From contig JAFMEZ010000013.1 of the NCBI GenBank assembly GCA_017856455.1, positions 1 to 44,386 on the forward strand: 44,386 bases of DNA, written 5' to 3'. This document shows positions 22,433-26,405 of this stretch, one piece after another. The position numbers were made by a program, and so were the translations under genes. The DNA comes from Parafilimonas sp. (GTDB lineage: Bacteria > Bacteroidota > Bacteroidia > Chitinophagales > Chitinophagaceae). Each line of letters starts with the position of its first letter. Positions within the stretch are counted from its first letter, which is position 1. Under the pieces are notes generated by a model. That model saw only the letters and a list, made by a program, of their open reading frames with translations, had not been told where the DNA came from and did not search any database.

Positions 22433-23878
22433 TTACTTTTCCGCCATCACCAGCTTATAAAAGCTGATCATTCTGCTTAAATCTGTAATTCCAATGCGTT
22501 CATCTATACCATGAAATCCTTTTGCGTTTTGCATAGGGGTGAAGTTGAGAACCGCTTCACTGAATGGTCTATAATATCTTGAATCAGTTGCTCCAATCAT
22601 TAAGTAAGGTGACACCAGAACATTGGGAACAATTTTTTGTGTGATGGATGATAACATTTTAAAGCTTGGATGATCAGATGGTGTAGATGATGAAGCCTCC
22701 ATCAAAGAAATCGTTTGTTTTTTTACAGATACTCTTTCATCGTTGATTGCTTTTCTAACAAACTCAACAACATCGTCACTTGATTGTCCGGGTAATATTC
22801 TGCTGTTAAATGTTGCGTTTGCAATGGATGGAATTACATTGTCTTTTATTCCAGCTTTTACAATCGTTGGTACCAATGTTGTGTGCACCATTGCATTGGT
22901 TTGTTTATTCTCTTCTAAATTTTTAATGATCATTCCTTTGAAAAGCCACATGTTTGAGATAACCATTTTTTTGAAGAATGATTGTTCAGTAGCGGTTAAT
23001 TCAAGAAGTGATTGAAGGGGAGGAGTGATGATAGGGGGCATTTGTTTTTCACGGACTTTCAAAATTGCATTGTTCAATACATCAATAGCAGTTTCTTTTT
23101 CAGGTTGTGATGAATGGCCGCCTGGAATTGTTACACTGATGTCAACATTAACAAAACCCTTTTCACCAGTGGCAATTACGGCAACTGGACGATTTACATC
23201 TTTGAATTTTTCAGTATCGATCATGCCACCTTCGTCCAATACAAATGCAGGTTTGATATTGTTTTCTTTAAACCATTTTGAAACGATTCTTGCTCCTCTT
23301 GTTCCAGCAATTTCTTCGTCGTGTCCGAAGCATAAATAGAATGTTCTTTCAGGGATGAAATTATTTCTAAGCAATTGTTCAGTTGCTTCCATGATTGCAA
23401 TGGCAGATGATTTGTCATCCACTGCACCTCTGCCCCAAATGGTATCTTCTTTAATTGTACCGCTAAAAGAAGGGTAGGTCCACTTACTCTCTGCAATTGC
23501 CTCAACAGGCACTACATCCATATGTGCCATTAAAACATATGGCGCTTTAGTACTGTCTTTCCCTTTCCATTTGAACACATAGCTAAATTGATTGAATGAC
23601 TGTTTTTCCAATTTTGAATGCATCAATGGATAGGTTCTTTCCATGAACGATCTGAATTTCAAAAATTCTGACGTGTCGATAGGAAGTGTGTCGCCGTATG
23701 AAACTGTTTTAATTTGGATGGCTTCACTCAGATGCAATGCAGCCGAATCATCTTTTGGTATATCAATCGTTGAAATCTTACTTTGATTTTCAGATTTTAA
23801 TTTCATTGTGTTGAAGAGAATAACACTAACAAACGCAATTGCTGCAACAGCTACTACAAGTAAAATTTTTTTCATCAA
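22433..23878 (-). CDS. M20 family metallopeptidase (PM20D1/carboxypeptidase S-like)
   Basis: A 481-aa zinc aminoacylase/carboxypeptidase anchored by an N-terminal TM helix (ILLVVAVAAIAFVSVILF). Metal and catalytic residues: H119 and D121 in MAHMDVVPV, bridging D154 in GRGAVDDKSS, and the base pair E188/E189 in GHDEEIAGTRGA. The dimerisation domain follows (VSVTIPGGHSSQPE region), then the C-terminal GATDSRYYRPFS block. Length and order match PM20D1/CPS1-type proteins, which cleave or form N-acyl amino acids or hydrolyse dipeptides. It lies 87 bp upstream of the quinoprotein gene on the same strand. Confidence 0.9.
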   Translation of the reverse strand: MMKKILLVVAVAAIAFVSVILFNTMKLKSENQSKISTIDIPKDDSAALHLSEAIQIKTVSYGDTLPIDTSEFLKFRSFMERTYPLMHSKLEKQSFNQFSYVFKWKGKDSTKAPYVLMAHMDVVPVEAIAESKWTYPSFSGTIKEDTIWGRGAVDDKSSAIAIMEATEQLLRNNFIPERTFYLCFGHDEEIAGTRGARIVSKWFKENNIKPAFVLDEGGMIDTEKFKDVNRPVAVIATGEKGFVNVDISVTIPGGHSSQPEKETAIDVLNNAILKVREKQMPPIITPPLQSLLELTATEQSFFKKMVISNMWLFKGMIIKNLEENKQTNAMVHTTLVPTIVKAGIKDNVIPSIANATFNSRILPGQSSDDVVEFVRKAINDERVSVKKQTISLMEASSSTPSDHPSFKMLSSITQKIVPNVLVSPYLMIGATDSRYYRPFSEAVLNFTPMQNAKGFHGIDERIGITDLSRMISFYKLVMAEK

Positions 23879-24112
23879 TGGTTATTTAAAATTAGACAGG
23901 AAGTATTTTGGATATAAAGTATTGTAAGATAACATATTATGAAACTCAATGTCTGAACATCATGAAAAATTTCAGAAATGCTCTTTTCTCTTCATAGAAT
24001 TTATTTTTACTCCTATTAGATTAAAAATCAGTCTCTTGTATCCCAATTACCAATTTTGTTGAATTATAGGGTATCTTCTTTTGAACAATTTTCTTAAATT
24101 CATGTTGTGTAA

Positions 24113-24142
24113 TTGACAACGATTGATTATGCGCGTGCTTTG
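24113..24142 (+). promoter_or_regulatory. Candidate rhodopsin promoter
   Basis: TTGACA with TTG at 24113-24115, a 19-bp spacer, and GTGCTTTG at 24135-24142 (TTTG of the -7 element matched, TA replaced by GT). The spacing is right for the Bacteroidota sigma factor. It predicts a leader of about 70 nt before ATG 24219. Confidence 0.4.
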
Positions 24143-24159
24143 CAATCTTTTTAAGATTG
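24143..24159 (+). promoter_or_regulatory. 17-bp palindrome in the rhodopsin leader region
   Basis: CAATCTT / AAGATTG, a perfect 7-bp inverted repeat with a TTT centre. It joins the end of direct repeat 1 to the beginning of direct repeat 2, just past the predicted -7 element: an operator-like position. Confidence 0.45.
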
Positions 24160-24218
24160 ACAGCCTTAATGATTATGTGCGAGTTGTGAAATAGATTTTT
24201 TTCACCAAAACTCCATAT

Positions 24219-24941
24219 ATGATTCATTCACTTTTGCTAGATGCCACTACGGCAATCGCGAAGAACGACTACGTTTCGTTTACGTTTTTCGTAGGCACCA
24301 TGGCCATGATGGCCGCTTCTGTTTTCTTCTTTTTTGAACTCAACAACACCAGCAAAGAGTGGCGTACTTCCGTCCTGGTATCAGGATTGATTACGTTCAT
24401 CGCTGCCGTGCATTACTACTATATGCGCGGATACTATGCTGATACGCATGAGTCGCCAACCTTTTTCCGTTATGTAGACTGGTTGTTGACTGTTCCTTTG
24501 ATGTGCGTTGAGTTTTATTTGATCACCAAAAAATCTGGTGGTACTACAAGTTTGTTATGGAAAATGATCCTTGCTTCAGTTGTTATGCTAGTAACTGGAT
24601 ACATGGGTGAAGCAGGCTTGGCTGATGCTACTGTTTGGGGTACTGTCAGTGCTATTGCTTACTTCTACATTGTATATGAAGTATGGATGGGAAGTGTTAA
24701 GAAACTTGCTACCAATGCTGGTCCAGCTGTTGCTGCTGCAAATGCTGCACTCGGATGGTTTGTATTGGTTGGTTGGGCTATCTATCCATTGGGTTACCTT
24801 ATCGGAACTGCTGATGGTCAATGGTATGAAAGCTTCAAGAACATAGGCTTAGACATGAATATCATCTATAACATTGGTGATGCTGTAAACAAAATTGGAT
24901 TTGGACTTGTGATTTATTCATTGAGTCGCAAAGCAGCATAA
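24219..24941 (+). CDS. Light-driven proton-pumping rhodopsin (proteorhodopsin/xanthorhodopsin type)
   Basis: Seven-helix retinal protein of 240 aa. Helix C (RYVDWLLTVPLMCVEFYLI) gives R84, proton acceptor D87, T91 and donor E98: the DTE set of outward proton pumps. M95 is at the spectral-tuning site, where Met or Leu means green absorption and Gln blue. H65 matches the His that pairs with the acceptor in proteorhodopsins. Helix G (GDAVNKIGF) has counter-ion D221 and retinal lysine K225. Helix E reads VWGTVSAIAYFYIVYE: G141 aligns with Gly156 of xanthorhodopsin, which leaves room for a carotenoid antenna, whereas Trp or a bulky residue there blocks it. Early codons favour C/G endings (AAG AAC GAC TAC), unlike the neighbours, consistent with high expression. 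blh follows. Confidence 0.97.
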   Translation: MIHSLLLDATTAIAKNDYVSFTFFVGTMAMMAASVFFFFELNNTSKEWRTSVLVSGLITFIAAVHYYYMRGYYADTHESPTFFRYVDWLLTVPLMCVEFYLITKKSGGTTSLLWKMILASVVMLVTGYMGEAGLADATVWGTVSAIAYFYIVYEVWMGSVKKLATNAGPAVAAANAALGWFVLVGWAIYPLGYLIGTADGQWYESFKNIGLDMNIIYNIGDAVNKIGFGLVIYSLSRKAA

Positions 24942-24959
24942 TCAGTTATTATATTGTGT

Positions 24960-24967
24960 TAATTTTG
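24960..24967 (+). promoter_or_regulatory. TAnnTTTG element between rhodopsin and blh
   Basis: TAATTTTG is an exact -7 match, 41 nt before the blh ATG. A start of transcription near 24972 would place the terminator hairpin at the 5' end of the blh mRNA. No TTG is visible at the -33 spacing. Confidence 0.3.
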
Positions 24968-24976
24968 GTTAATGGC

Positions 24977-25005
24977 GGGGCGAAGCAATTCGCCCCATTT
25001 TTTTT
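24977..25005 (+). terminator. Strong intrinsic terminator between rhodopsin and blh
   Basis: An 8-bp GC-rich stem (GGGGCGAA 24977-24984; TTCGCCCC 24989-24996) with a GNRA-type GCAA loop, then A and eight T (24998-25005). It ends 3 nt before the blh ATG and therefore occupies the ribosome-binding region of blh. Confidence 0.9.
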
Positions 25006-25008
25006 GAT

Positions 25009-25935
25009 ATGCAATTAAGATTGAGAATTATTTTATTGTTCATTGGAGCACTCCTTACGGTCTTAAGTAATTTTCTGATCGTATCTGATGCCAATCAGTT
25101 CAAATTGCTGTTGTTCAGTATGGTTTTATTGGGTGTGCCACATGGTGCACTTGATTTGTATATTGAAGGGAAAGATATTCATTCCAAATACCAAAAGAGC
25201 AATCAGTTTTTATTGAAGTATCTCTTGAATATTTTTCTTTACGCTTCACTTTGGTATCTATCACCCATCATTGCGTTGATTATTTTTATTTTTATAACTG
25301 CTTATCATTTTGGGGAAATTGACTGGATGGGGAAATCAGATACCTGGACTCAAAAGTTTGTATACAGCTTATTGGGGATGTGTTGGATTCTCTATTTTCT
25401 TTCTATAAACATATCCAGCGCACTGAAAATATTTCTCTATGTAGGTCAATCAAATGTTACAGATCAACAATGGCTGCATATAGCTTCTCTAGTTTCTCCT
25501 ATTGCATTGATCTTAATTATTGCTACTTATATAGTTTTATTGCTGAAGCGAAAATATTTCTTTTATCAGTCGAATCATTTTTATTTCTCTGTTATCCAAT
25601 TGATCATACTGCTTGTCATTTGTCACTTTAGTACACTTTGGGTAGGTTTTGGTTTCTATTTTGGTTTATGGCATTCTATTTTATCATTCGATAAAATTCG
25701 CAGCAGTTTCTCAATGCCAGATACATTAAAGAGTTGGGGGCACCTACTTAAGCAAGCCATGCCATTTTCTATCATGGCATGGATCGGCATGTTATTTATA
25801 ATGTTTATGTTCTACAGCAGTAAAAATTCCACCAGCTTAGTAACACTTTTATTCATCACACTTTCTGTGCTAACCTTACCTCATTTACAGGTTTTCACAA
25901 AACTGAAATTGAGAAGTTCCGAATCGAGTAATTAA
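25009..25935 (+). CDS. blh: Brp/Blh family beta-carotene 15,15'-dioxygenase
   Basis: Integral membrane enzyme of 308 aa that cleaves beta-carotene into two retinal molecules for the adjacent rhodopsin. The four conserved His motifs thought to bind iron are complete: H45 in GVPHGALD, H100 in AYHFGEID, H222 in FGLWHS and H292 in LPHLQ. About eight or nine hydrophobic helices. ATG 25009 is the only reasonable start: the next in-frame Met is near residue 38, inside the conserved region. Expression must come through or past the terminator just upstream, giving less Blh than opsin. The 3' end abuts the convergent DoxX gene. Confidence 0.95.
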   Translation: MQLRLRIILLFIGALLTVLSNFLIVSDANQFKLLLFSMVLLGVPHGALDLYIEGKDIHSKYQKSNQFLLKYLLNIFLYASLWYLSPIIALIIFIFITAYHFGEIDWMGKSDTWTQKFVYSLLGMCWILYFLSINISSALKIFLYVGQSNVTDQQWLHIASLVSPIALILIIATYIVLLLKRKYFFYQSNHFYFSVIQLIILLVICHFSTLWVGFGFYFGLWHSILSFDKIRSSFSMPDTLKSWGHLLKQAMPFSIMAWIGMLFIMFMFYSSKNSTSLVTLLFITLSVLTLPHLQVFTKLKLRSSESSN

Positions 25936-26313
25936 TTATTTGAGGAGTGCGAGGTATTTTTCTTTGTTATTTAAAATAATGCCTATAAGGACTACCCAAA
26001 TAACCAGTGCCATTATAACATTTGAAGTGTCTACAAAAAGATGAGTTAAAAGAACACCAACCATCACCGGGAAAACTACTAATGCACCCAATGCTCTCGT
26101 TTTTGGGAAAATAATTAGTAATCCGCCTAACAGCTCAGCACTTGCAATCAAAGGCATCAGCCAAGAAATTTCCATCATCGCAGCATTGTCTTTCATAACT
26201 GCTTCTGGTAAATTAGTTGGGGTTGGCATGTATTGAAAAAATTTTGCCAAGCCTCCGTTGATGAGTAATAATCCAAAAATGATTGATAAAATATTTAAGA
26301 TTTTGTTTTTCAT
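25936..26313 (-). CDS. DoxX family membrane protein
   Basis: A 125-aa four-helix membrane protein: ILNILSIIFGLLLINGGLAKF, ASAELLGGLLIIF, LGALVVFPVMVGVLLTHLF and VIMALVIWVVLIGIILN. The GLAKF and SAELLGG signatures are DoxX-like. Such proteins appear near redox and thiol-stress genes; the precise role is unknown. It is divergent from the DUF2141 gene and abuts blh at the stop codons. Complete for the family. Confidence 0.85.
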   Translation of the reverse strand: MKNKILNILSIIFGLLLINGGLAKFFQYMPTPTNLPEAVMKDNAAMMEISWLMPLIASAELLGGLLIIFPKTRALGALVVFPVMVGVLLTHLFVDTSNVIMALVIWVVLIGIILNNKEKYLALLK

Positions 26314-26331
26314 AACTACTTGTTTATAATT

Positions 26332-26360
26332 TAAATATAATCAATAAAAATATTATTCAA
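26332..26360 (-). promoter_or_regulatory. Candidate DoxX promoter
   Basis: On the minus strand: TTG (26360-26358), an 18-bp spacer, and TATATTTA (26339-26332), one mismatch from TAnnTTTG. Ends 18 nt before the DoxX ATG. Confidence 0.35.
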
Positions 26361-26374
26361 TCCACTTCTAGGTT

Positions 26375-26382
26375 TACATTTG
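26375..26382 (+). promoter_or_regulatory. TAnnTTTG -7 element before the DUF2141 gene
   Basis: TACATTTG is an exact match, 23 nt upstream of the ATG at 26406. The -33 box is weak (TTC instead of TTG). Confidence 0.4.
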
Positions 26383-26405
26383 TAATCGGTACTCATAGCA
26401 TTAAG

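Follow-up and report, generated by a model that had tools for sequence, protein, structure and literature searches.

Because each opsin takes one retinal and Blh, the retinal-making enzyme, is a catalyst, one expects some means of keeping the two genes of a rhodopsin–blh operon at different levels. In a window of 44,386 nucleotides (the whole stretch of DNA analysed) from a Parafilimonas genome of the family Chitinophagaceae, gene calls and a profile search place rhodopsin and blh next to each other on the + strand. The rhodopsin gene (24219–24941, +; bacteriorhodopsin-like, PF01036, 1.2e-40) is 90–95% identical to its two nearest relatives and presumably encodes a proteorhodopsin-type proton pump, judging by the D..T..E motif spacing in RYVDWLLTVPLMCVEFYLI. 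The blh gene (25009–25935, +; PF15461 BCD, 1.4e-40) follows after a gap of 67 nt (24942–25008, +).

Anatomy of the rhodopsin–blh gap

The gap contains a 20-nt hairpin at 24977–24996 (+), in which GGGGCGAA (24977–24984) and TTCGCCCC (24989–24996) form an 8-bp stem closed by a GCAA loop (24985–24988). The stem starts 35 nt after the rhodopsin stop and is separated by a single A (24997) from a tract of eight T (24998–25005, +); GAT and the blh ATG at 25009 come next, so that the stem ends 12 nt and the T tract 3 nt ahead of blh. Before the hairpin, TAATTTTG (24960–24967, +) is an exact copy of TAnnTTTG, the Bacteroidota -7 box, which we judge below to be a chance match. The initial annotation had described the gap length, the box, the GCAA hairpin and the eight T near blh, and all of these are exact.

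The terminator scan gave the hairpin a folding energy of -14.6 kcal/mol and a terminator score of 12. It has the form of an intrinsic terminator, a stable G+C-rich stem and then a U tract. When its 143-nt region was dinucleotide-shuffled 2000 times, 3 shuffles reached its score and 9 passed the threshold used throughout this work. A generic terminator scan of 22–28 kb returned 4 sites against 3.5 in shuffles, which is no excess for the class; the specific rhodopsin–blh site exceeds chance, and terminator sites as a class do not. Folded as a whole, a 122-nt stretch was only moderately better than its shuffles (z -1.47; 19/200 as good). The stem is unique at up to 1 mismatch in the 1.94-Mb assembly, which is 89% complete; with 3 mismatches allowed, other places in the assembly appeared only at 2 and 3 mismatches, and a dispersed repeat was rejected.

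Conservation across Bacteroidia and attachment to rhodopsin

We compared this junction with those of other rhodopsin genes. A Blh match over the curated cut-off was present in 37/394 genomes of the same family, Chitinophagaceae (family set; five matches below the cut-off omitted), and a rhodopsin over the cut-off in 86/395 sampled Bacteroidia genomes (class set). Omitted from the class set were the source's own match, G155 (in the family set), G718, G479, G449 (two pieces), G752, G677, G516 and four matches below the cut-off. The source stretch, 80 class-set regions and 36 family regions made up the 117 sources of the main analysis, which left 112 rhodopsin 3′ ends (no usable end in L073, L118, L128, L138 and L157). 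Genes were longest-ORF calls. Hairpins and T tracts in the 140 nt after every stop were given a score of the d'Aubenton Carafa type, and an end passed with a terminator score >0 and a stem of -8 kcal/mol or better, a threshold fixed after the family gaps were seen and before the wider Bacteroidia sample.

A hairpin with T tract passed at 93/112 rhodopsin 3′ ends across Chitinophagaceae and other Bacteroidia, among them 66/81 rhodopsins that had a co-directional neighbour no more than 250 nt away and 51/59 with blh as the next close co-directional gene, where it stands in the position of an internal terminator between co-directional genes of one pathway. In the same stretches, the controls passed at 18/226 co-directional gaps of 41–100 nt and 28/205 of 101–250 nt (46/431 over 41–250 nt), at 76/562 convergent gaps and at 4/80 blh 3′ ends; shuffled rhodopsin regions passed in 8/4480. 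The contrast was stable at five thresholds, running from 72 down to 18/81 for rhodopsin versus 54 down to 17/431 for other gaps. Without Chitinophagaceae, the wider Bacteroidia sample still passed at 65/78, and at least one passing rhodopsin end was found in 21/23 taxonomic families (12/13 for rhodopsin–blh). Outside the class Bacteroidia, 24 loci, one of them without a rhodopsin ORF, gave 23 ends, of which 19 passed, with 12 of the 23 coming from one family; the single rhodopsin there with blh next, L243, does not pass; its stem folds at -16.9 and its tail is weak. A terminator-type element between opsin and blh, as the initial annotation had put there, is thus a conserved feature.

The hairpin starts a median of 21.5 nt after the rhodopsin stop, and from stem end to blh ATG the median is 22 nt. 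This last distance is 30 nt or less in 35/51 junctions and above 30 nt, reaching 159 nt, in 16/51, which would leave space for a promoter. Eight of the 59 rhodopsin–blh junctions lie below the threshold. A terminator is absent from L044, L047 and L051; L072 has a stem without a T tail, and L132, L135, L137 and L148 have a stem with a weak tail. With a gap of only 14 nt and no stem in L047 and L051, the device must be dispensable. On a plasmid of the alphaproteobacterial Polymorphobacter sp. PAMC 29334, rhodopsin and blh are 1 nt apart, and on a Hoeflea sp. plasmid a flotillin-domain gene follows rhodopsin, and the 6.6-kb stretch examined carries no annotated blh (two of 8 plasmid records examined).

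The initial annotation had held that absence of the hairpin from close relatives would tell against it; among same-genus relatives with a Blh match it is present in 7/7, and 5/7 pass the threshold, the others being G315, with two A before seven T, and G203, in which one A precedes a short run of T. The two nearest relatives, G315 and G139, keep the identical 20-nt hairpin, with Blh identity down to 59–70%. Two further near relatives have double changes at three pairs and zero broken pairs. In the resulting alignment of five sequences, 3/8 pairs are altered on both sides, 40/40 cells are paired and every slid register is worse, which is the compensatory change looked for in a terminator stem. 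Across the 51 passing rhodopsin–blh hairpins, 49 different sequences occur. Since letters are replaced and pairing is kept, the structure of the hairpin rather than its sequence appears to be under selection.

The hairpin goes with the end of rhodopsin. In seven loci a gene of 373–389 aa, read as a putative lycopene cyclase, intervenes between rhodopsin and blh; the stem remains behind rhodopsin, passing in 5/7, and the intervening gene overlaps blh by 1–14 nt, with no passing terminator at that junction. Six of these are family loci (L122, L130, L131, L136, L141 and L147; 4/6 pass, overlaps of 1 to 4 nt), in two of which, L122 and L130, the stem has a weaker tail; in the seventh, L093 from another family, the rhodopsin hairpin passes and the overlap is 14 nt. 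Rhodopsins facing a convergent gene pass in 23/26. The proposal that the hairpin also limits translation at the blh start gains no support from this, as the same hairpin precedes other and convergent genes and its position follows the rhodopsin stop. Because rhodopsins without blh share the hairpin, much of the data would suit a hairpin that simply ends a strongly expressed gene; support for the dosage reading comes from rhodopsins with a close co-directional neighbour.

The Blh profile also matches ORFs of about 670–680 aa beside rhodopsin, apparently putative lycopene cyclase–Blh fusions (L060, L070, L071, L076, L078, L082, L083, L085, L087, L096, L099, L105, L108, L109, L145, L153 and L155).

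Probable partial termination and competing readings

Such a conserved element between the two genes points most naturally to opsin transcript in excess. We consider it probable, on the sequence evidence, that the hairpin and its T tract act as an internal, partial intrinsic terminator, holding opsin far above Blh and leaving blh to read-through. RNA polymerase starting upstream of rhodopsin would transcribe the opsin gene, and most polymerases would then be released at the hairpin with its U tract, giving abundant monocistronic opsin mRNA, and a read-through minority would yield an opsin–blh message on which blh expression would depend. With blh starting 12 nt past the stem, and 30 nt or less in most relatives, there is scant room for a promoter, which argues for this dependence. 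The outcome would be a large excess of opsin, needed at one per retinal, over the catalyst. Termination, its partial degree and dosage as the selected effect are what we infer from these features. A lower score before blh would suit a partial terminator: with stems of -8 or better and scores above -40 kept, the median was 20.7 before blh (n 55) versus 36.5 at transcript ends (n 29; p 0.0012), and the same contrast within the Bacteroidia sample (27 versus 29) gave p 0.064, so it is only a hint. Weak blh expression is reported for Dokdonia PRO95 (PMC3587595), and, depending on the orientation of blh there, it may have another cause.

Alternatively, the hairpin could be the full terminator of a monocistronic rhodopsin, with blh served by a promoter inside rhodopsin or the gap, a reading that we regard as unlikely. 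It draws on the exact TAnnTTTG at 24960–24967 and on the rhodopsins without blh that bear the same hairpin. In F. psychrophilum this box lies at -12 to -5, by which the start here would fall at 24972; mRNAs of that species have a median 5′ leader of 24 nt, with 5.5% leaderless (PMC9723704). The initial annotation had proposed such an internal start, and it gained no support. Our scan covered the close co-directional junctions with a score above -20, 72 of 81 in all. From the last 100 nt of rhodopsin to the stem, TAnnTTTG occurs in 1/72, the source genome only, versus 7.1 in shuffles, and over the whole gap in 5/72 versus 5.1, counts that speak to TAnnTTTG-type promoters only; it is absent from G315 and G139, which share the identical hairpin. 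TTG-N16-22-TAnnTTTG was found in 0/72 junctions. At 24960, the sigma-A box itself is present, and neither a TTG 16–22 nt before it, the -33 spacing, nor conservation was found. With 1/72 against 7.1 expected, we take the box to be chance, and an internal sigma-A promoter was rejected as a conserved feature. Ahead of rhodopsin, too, TAnnTTTG is found in 18/110 upstream regions against 22.5 expected. A promoter in the 3′ coding end of rhodopsin was likewise rejected, as third-position identity is not raised there among three genomes compared (28/38, 20/38 and 22/38 in the last full rhodopsin block, within the range of other blocks). A promoter wholly past the stem hardly fits in most junctions, and one upstream of the stem must still read through the terminator.

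The same excess of opsin could arise after transcription, if the opsin–blh message were cut and the stem kept exonucleases off the opsin 3′ end; opsin mRNA would then outlive blh mRNA. A stem conserved with compensatory change would suit such protection, as would the strong stems with poor T tails in L132, L137 and L072 and the poor-tailed stems behind rplL described below; protection, however, needs no T-rich tail, and such a tail passes in 51/59 rhodopsin–blh junctions, which makes this reading improbable. We give very little credence to a regulated attenuator, in which an alternative fold or a bound factor would open the terminator on retinal or light demand for Blh. A weak upstream stem is predicted beside the terminator (24945–24951 with 24970–24976), but it does not compete with it; the space from stop to stem is short (the median and source distances given above), and ahead of the stem the gap shows poor conservation past the nearest relative. 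Rfam 15 gave zero family matches in 23800–26400 at E up to 1, and a known riboswitch or leader was rejected. The initial annotation had spoken of a switch setting retinal supply, and there is no sign of any switching. Extending partial termination to one shared Bacteroidota dosage architecture, with an opsin-terminal terminator, blh on read-through, selection despite sequence replacement, and tuning (or light or retinal regulation) so that retinal follows opsin demand, seems to us doubtful.

Other elements lie upstream of rhodopsin. Its leader (24108–24218) shows 79% mean column identity among the source genome and four near relatives, with conserved stretches ACAACGATTG, TGCTTTG, ACAGCC and TTCACCAAAACTC, and has no Rfam match; in the source genome a hairpin, GAGTTGTGAA...TTCACC..AACTC, is predicted just ahead of the rhodopsin start. 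A structured leader on the rhodopsin mRNA may be a separate control point. Among 17 hand-picked Bacteroidia loci, 9 with exact AGAGTAGG, 7/17 have an Rfam match to the DUF805 (RF03081) or DUF805b (RF02914) cis-regulatory RNA about 13–22 nt upstream of the rhodopsin start (L060:10629-10698(-), L088:7408-7476(-), L072:10267-10333(-), L104:9776-9838(+), L079:10155-10224(-), L043:1123-1158(+) and L050:10337-10372(-)); L058 has a DUF805 match elsewhere, away from its rhodopsin. Outside Chitinophagaceae, TTAAACAA is found upstream of 37/76 Bacteroidia rhodopsin genes versus 3.9 in shuffles, and TGTTTAAC upstream of 14/76 of the same genes versus 0.8 (for example in L046, L068, L089 and L115), each a candidate operator or promoter element.

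Comparison with known stoichiometry-setting elements

Classic cases of a product made in excess of that of the next gene are L7/L12 (rplL) and the c subunit of ATP synthase (atpE). We took the best-scoring 30 loci each of rplL (56 genomes matched) and atpE (57 genomes matched; one locus without a match, leaving 29, and a few resembling other rotor-ring subunits). A stem of -12 kcal/mol or better, 5–45 nt past the stop, follows rplL in 30/30 of these best loci, atpE in 23/29 and rhodopsin in 73/81, against 88/431 other gaps of 41–250 nt and 68/444 of up to 40 nt, so that rhodopsin looks like another gene raised above its neighbour by a 3′-end stem. A good T tract accompanies the stem in 7/30 rplL and 18/29 atpE loci among the best-scoring; the poor-tailed rplL stems may act differently, and the rhodopsin stem looks to have a more terminator-like tail than the comparators. 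The atpE loci (L188–L217) include many 3′ hairpins that share, by eye, a loop-side CGGTTGG or CGATTGG, which exceeds the needs of a plain terminator. Together, these stems suggest that the bacteria in our sample set stoichiometry within operons by 3′-end hairpins behind rplL, atpE and rhodopsin.

For rhodopsin, the hairpin is a concrete and easily tested candidate for the dosage device of a very small phototrophic operon. If it works as proposed, opsin transcripts should greatly outnumber those of blh in rhodopsin-bearing Bacteroidota, a point to keep in mind when environmental transcript counts are read. In the literature searched, which excluded most subscription papers, we found no report of a hairpin or terminator separating rhodopsin from blh.

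Several known systems resemble the junction. In E. coli, the rplL–rpoB attenuator is a partial terminator between a multi-copy protein and the next gene; Bacteroidia rplL likewise carries a stem at all of its best loci, although there is no homology and its tails are mostly poor. In the Rhodobacter pufBA–pufLM operon, also a phototrophy operon, an intercistronic hairpin sets the excess of the upstream gene, but acts through mRNA stability and is not known to act by termination.

Another case is that of the ABC importer operons of Ruminiclostridium cellulolyticum, whose internal terminators are reported to contain less U than canonical terminators and to have longer stems (PMC9045158). There too a stem-loop lies behind the gene wanted in excess and the next genes have a lower transcript level; transcripts and termination were measured in that system, whereas rhodopsin–blh is read from sequence, with mostly good U tracts. 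In the archaeal Methanococcus maripaludis, intra-operon termination is reported similarly to lower downstream genes, at sites that were mapped by Term-seq and tested by mutation (PMC10450193). Internal terminators that set stoichiometry are thus on record (PMC9045158, PMC10450193); one behind rhodopsin is apparently new, and of unusual breadth.
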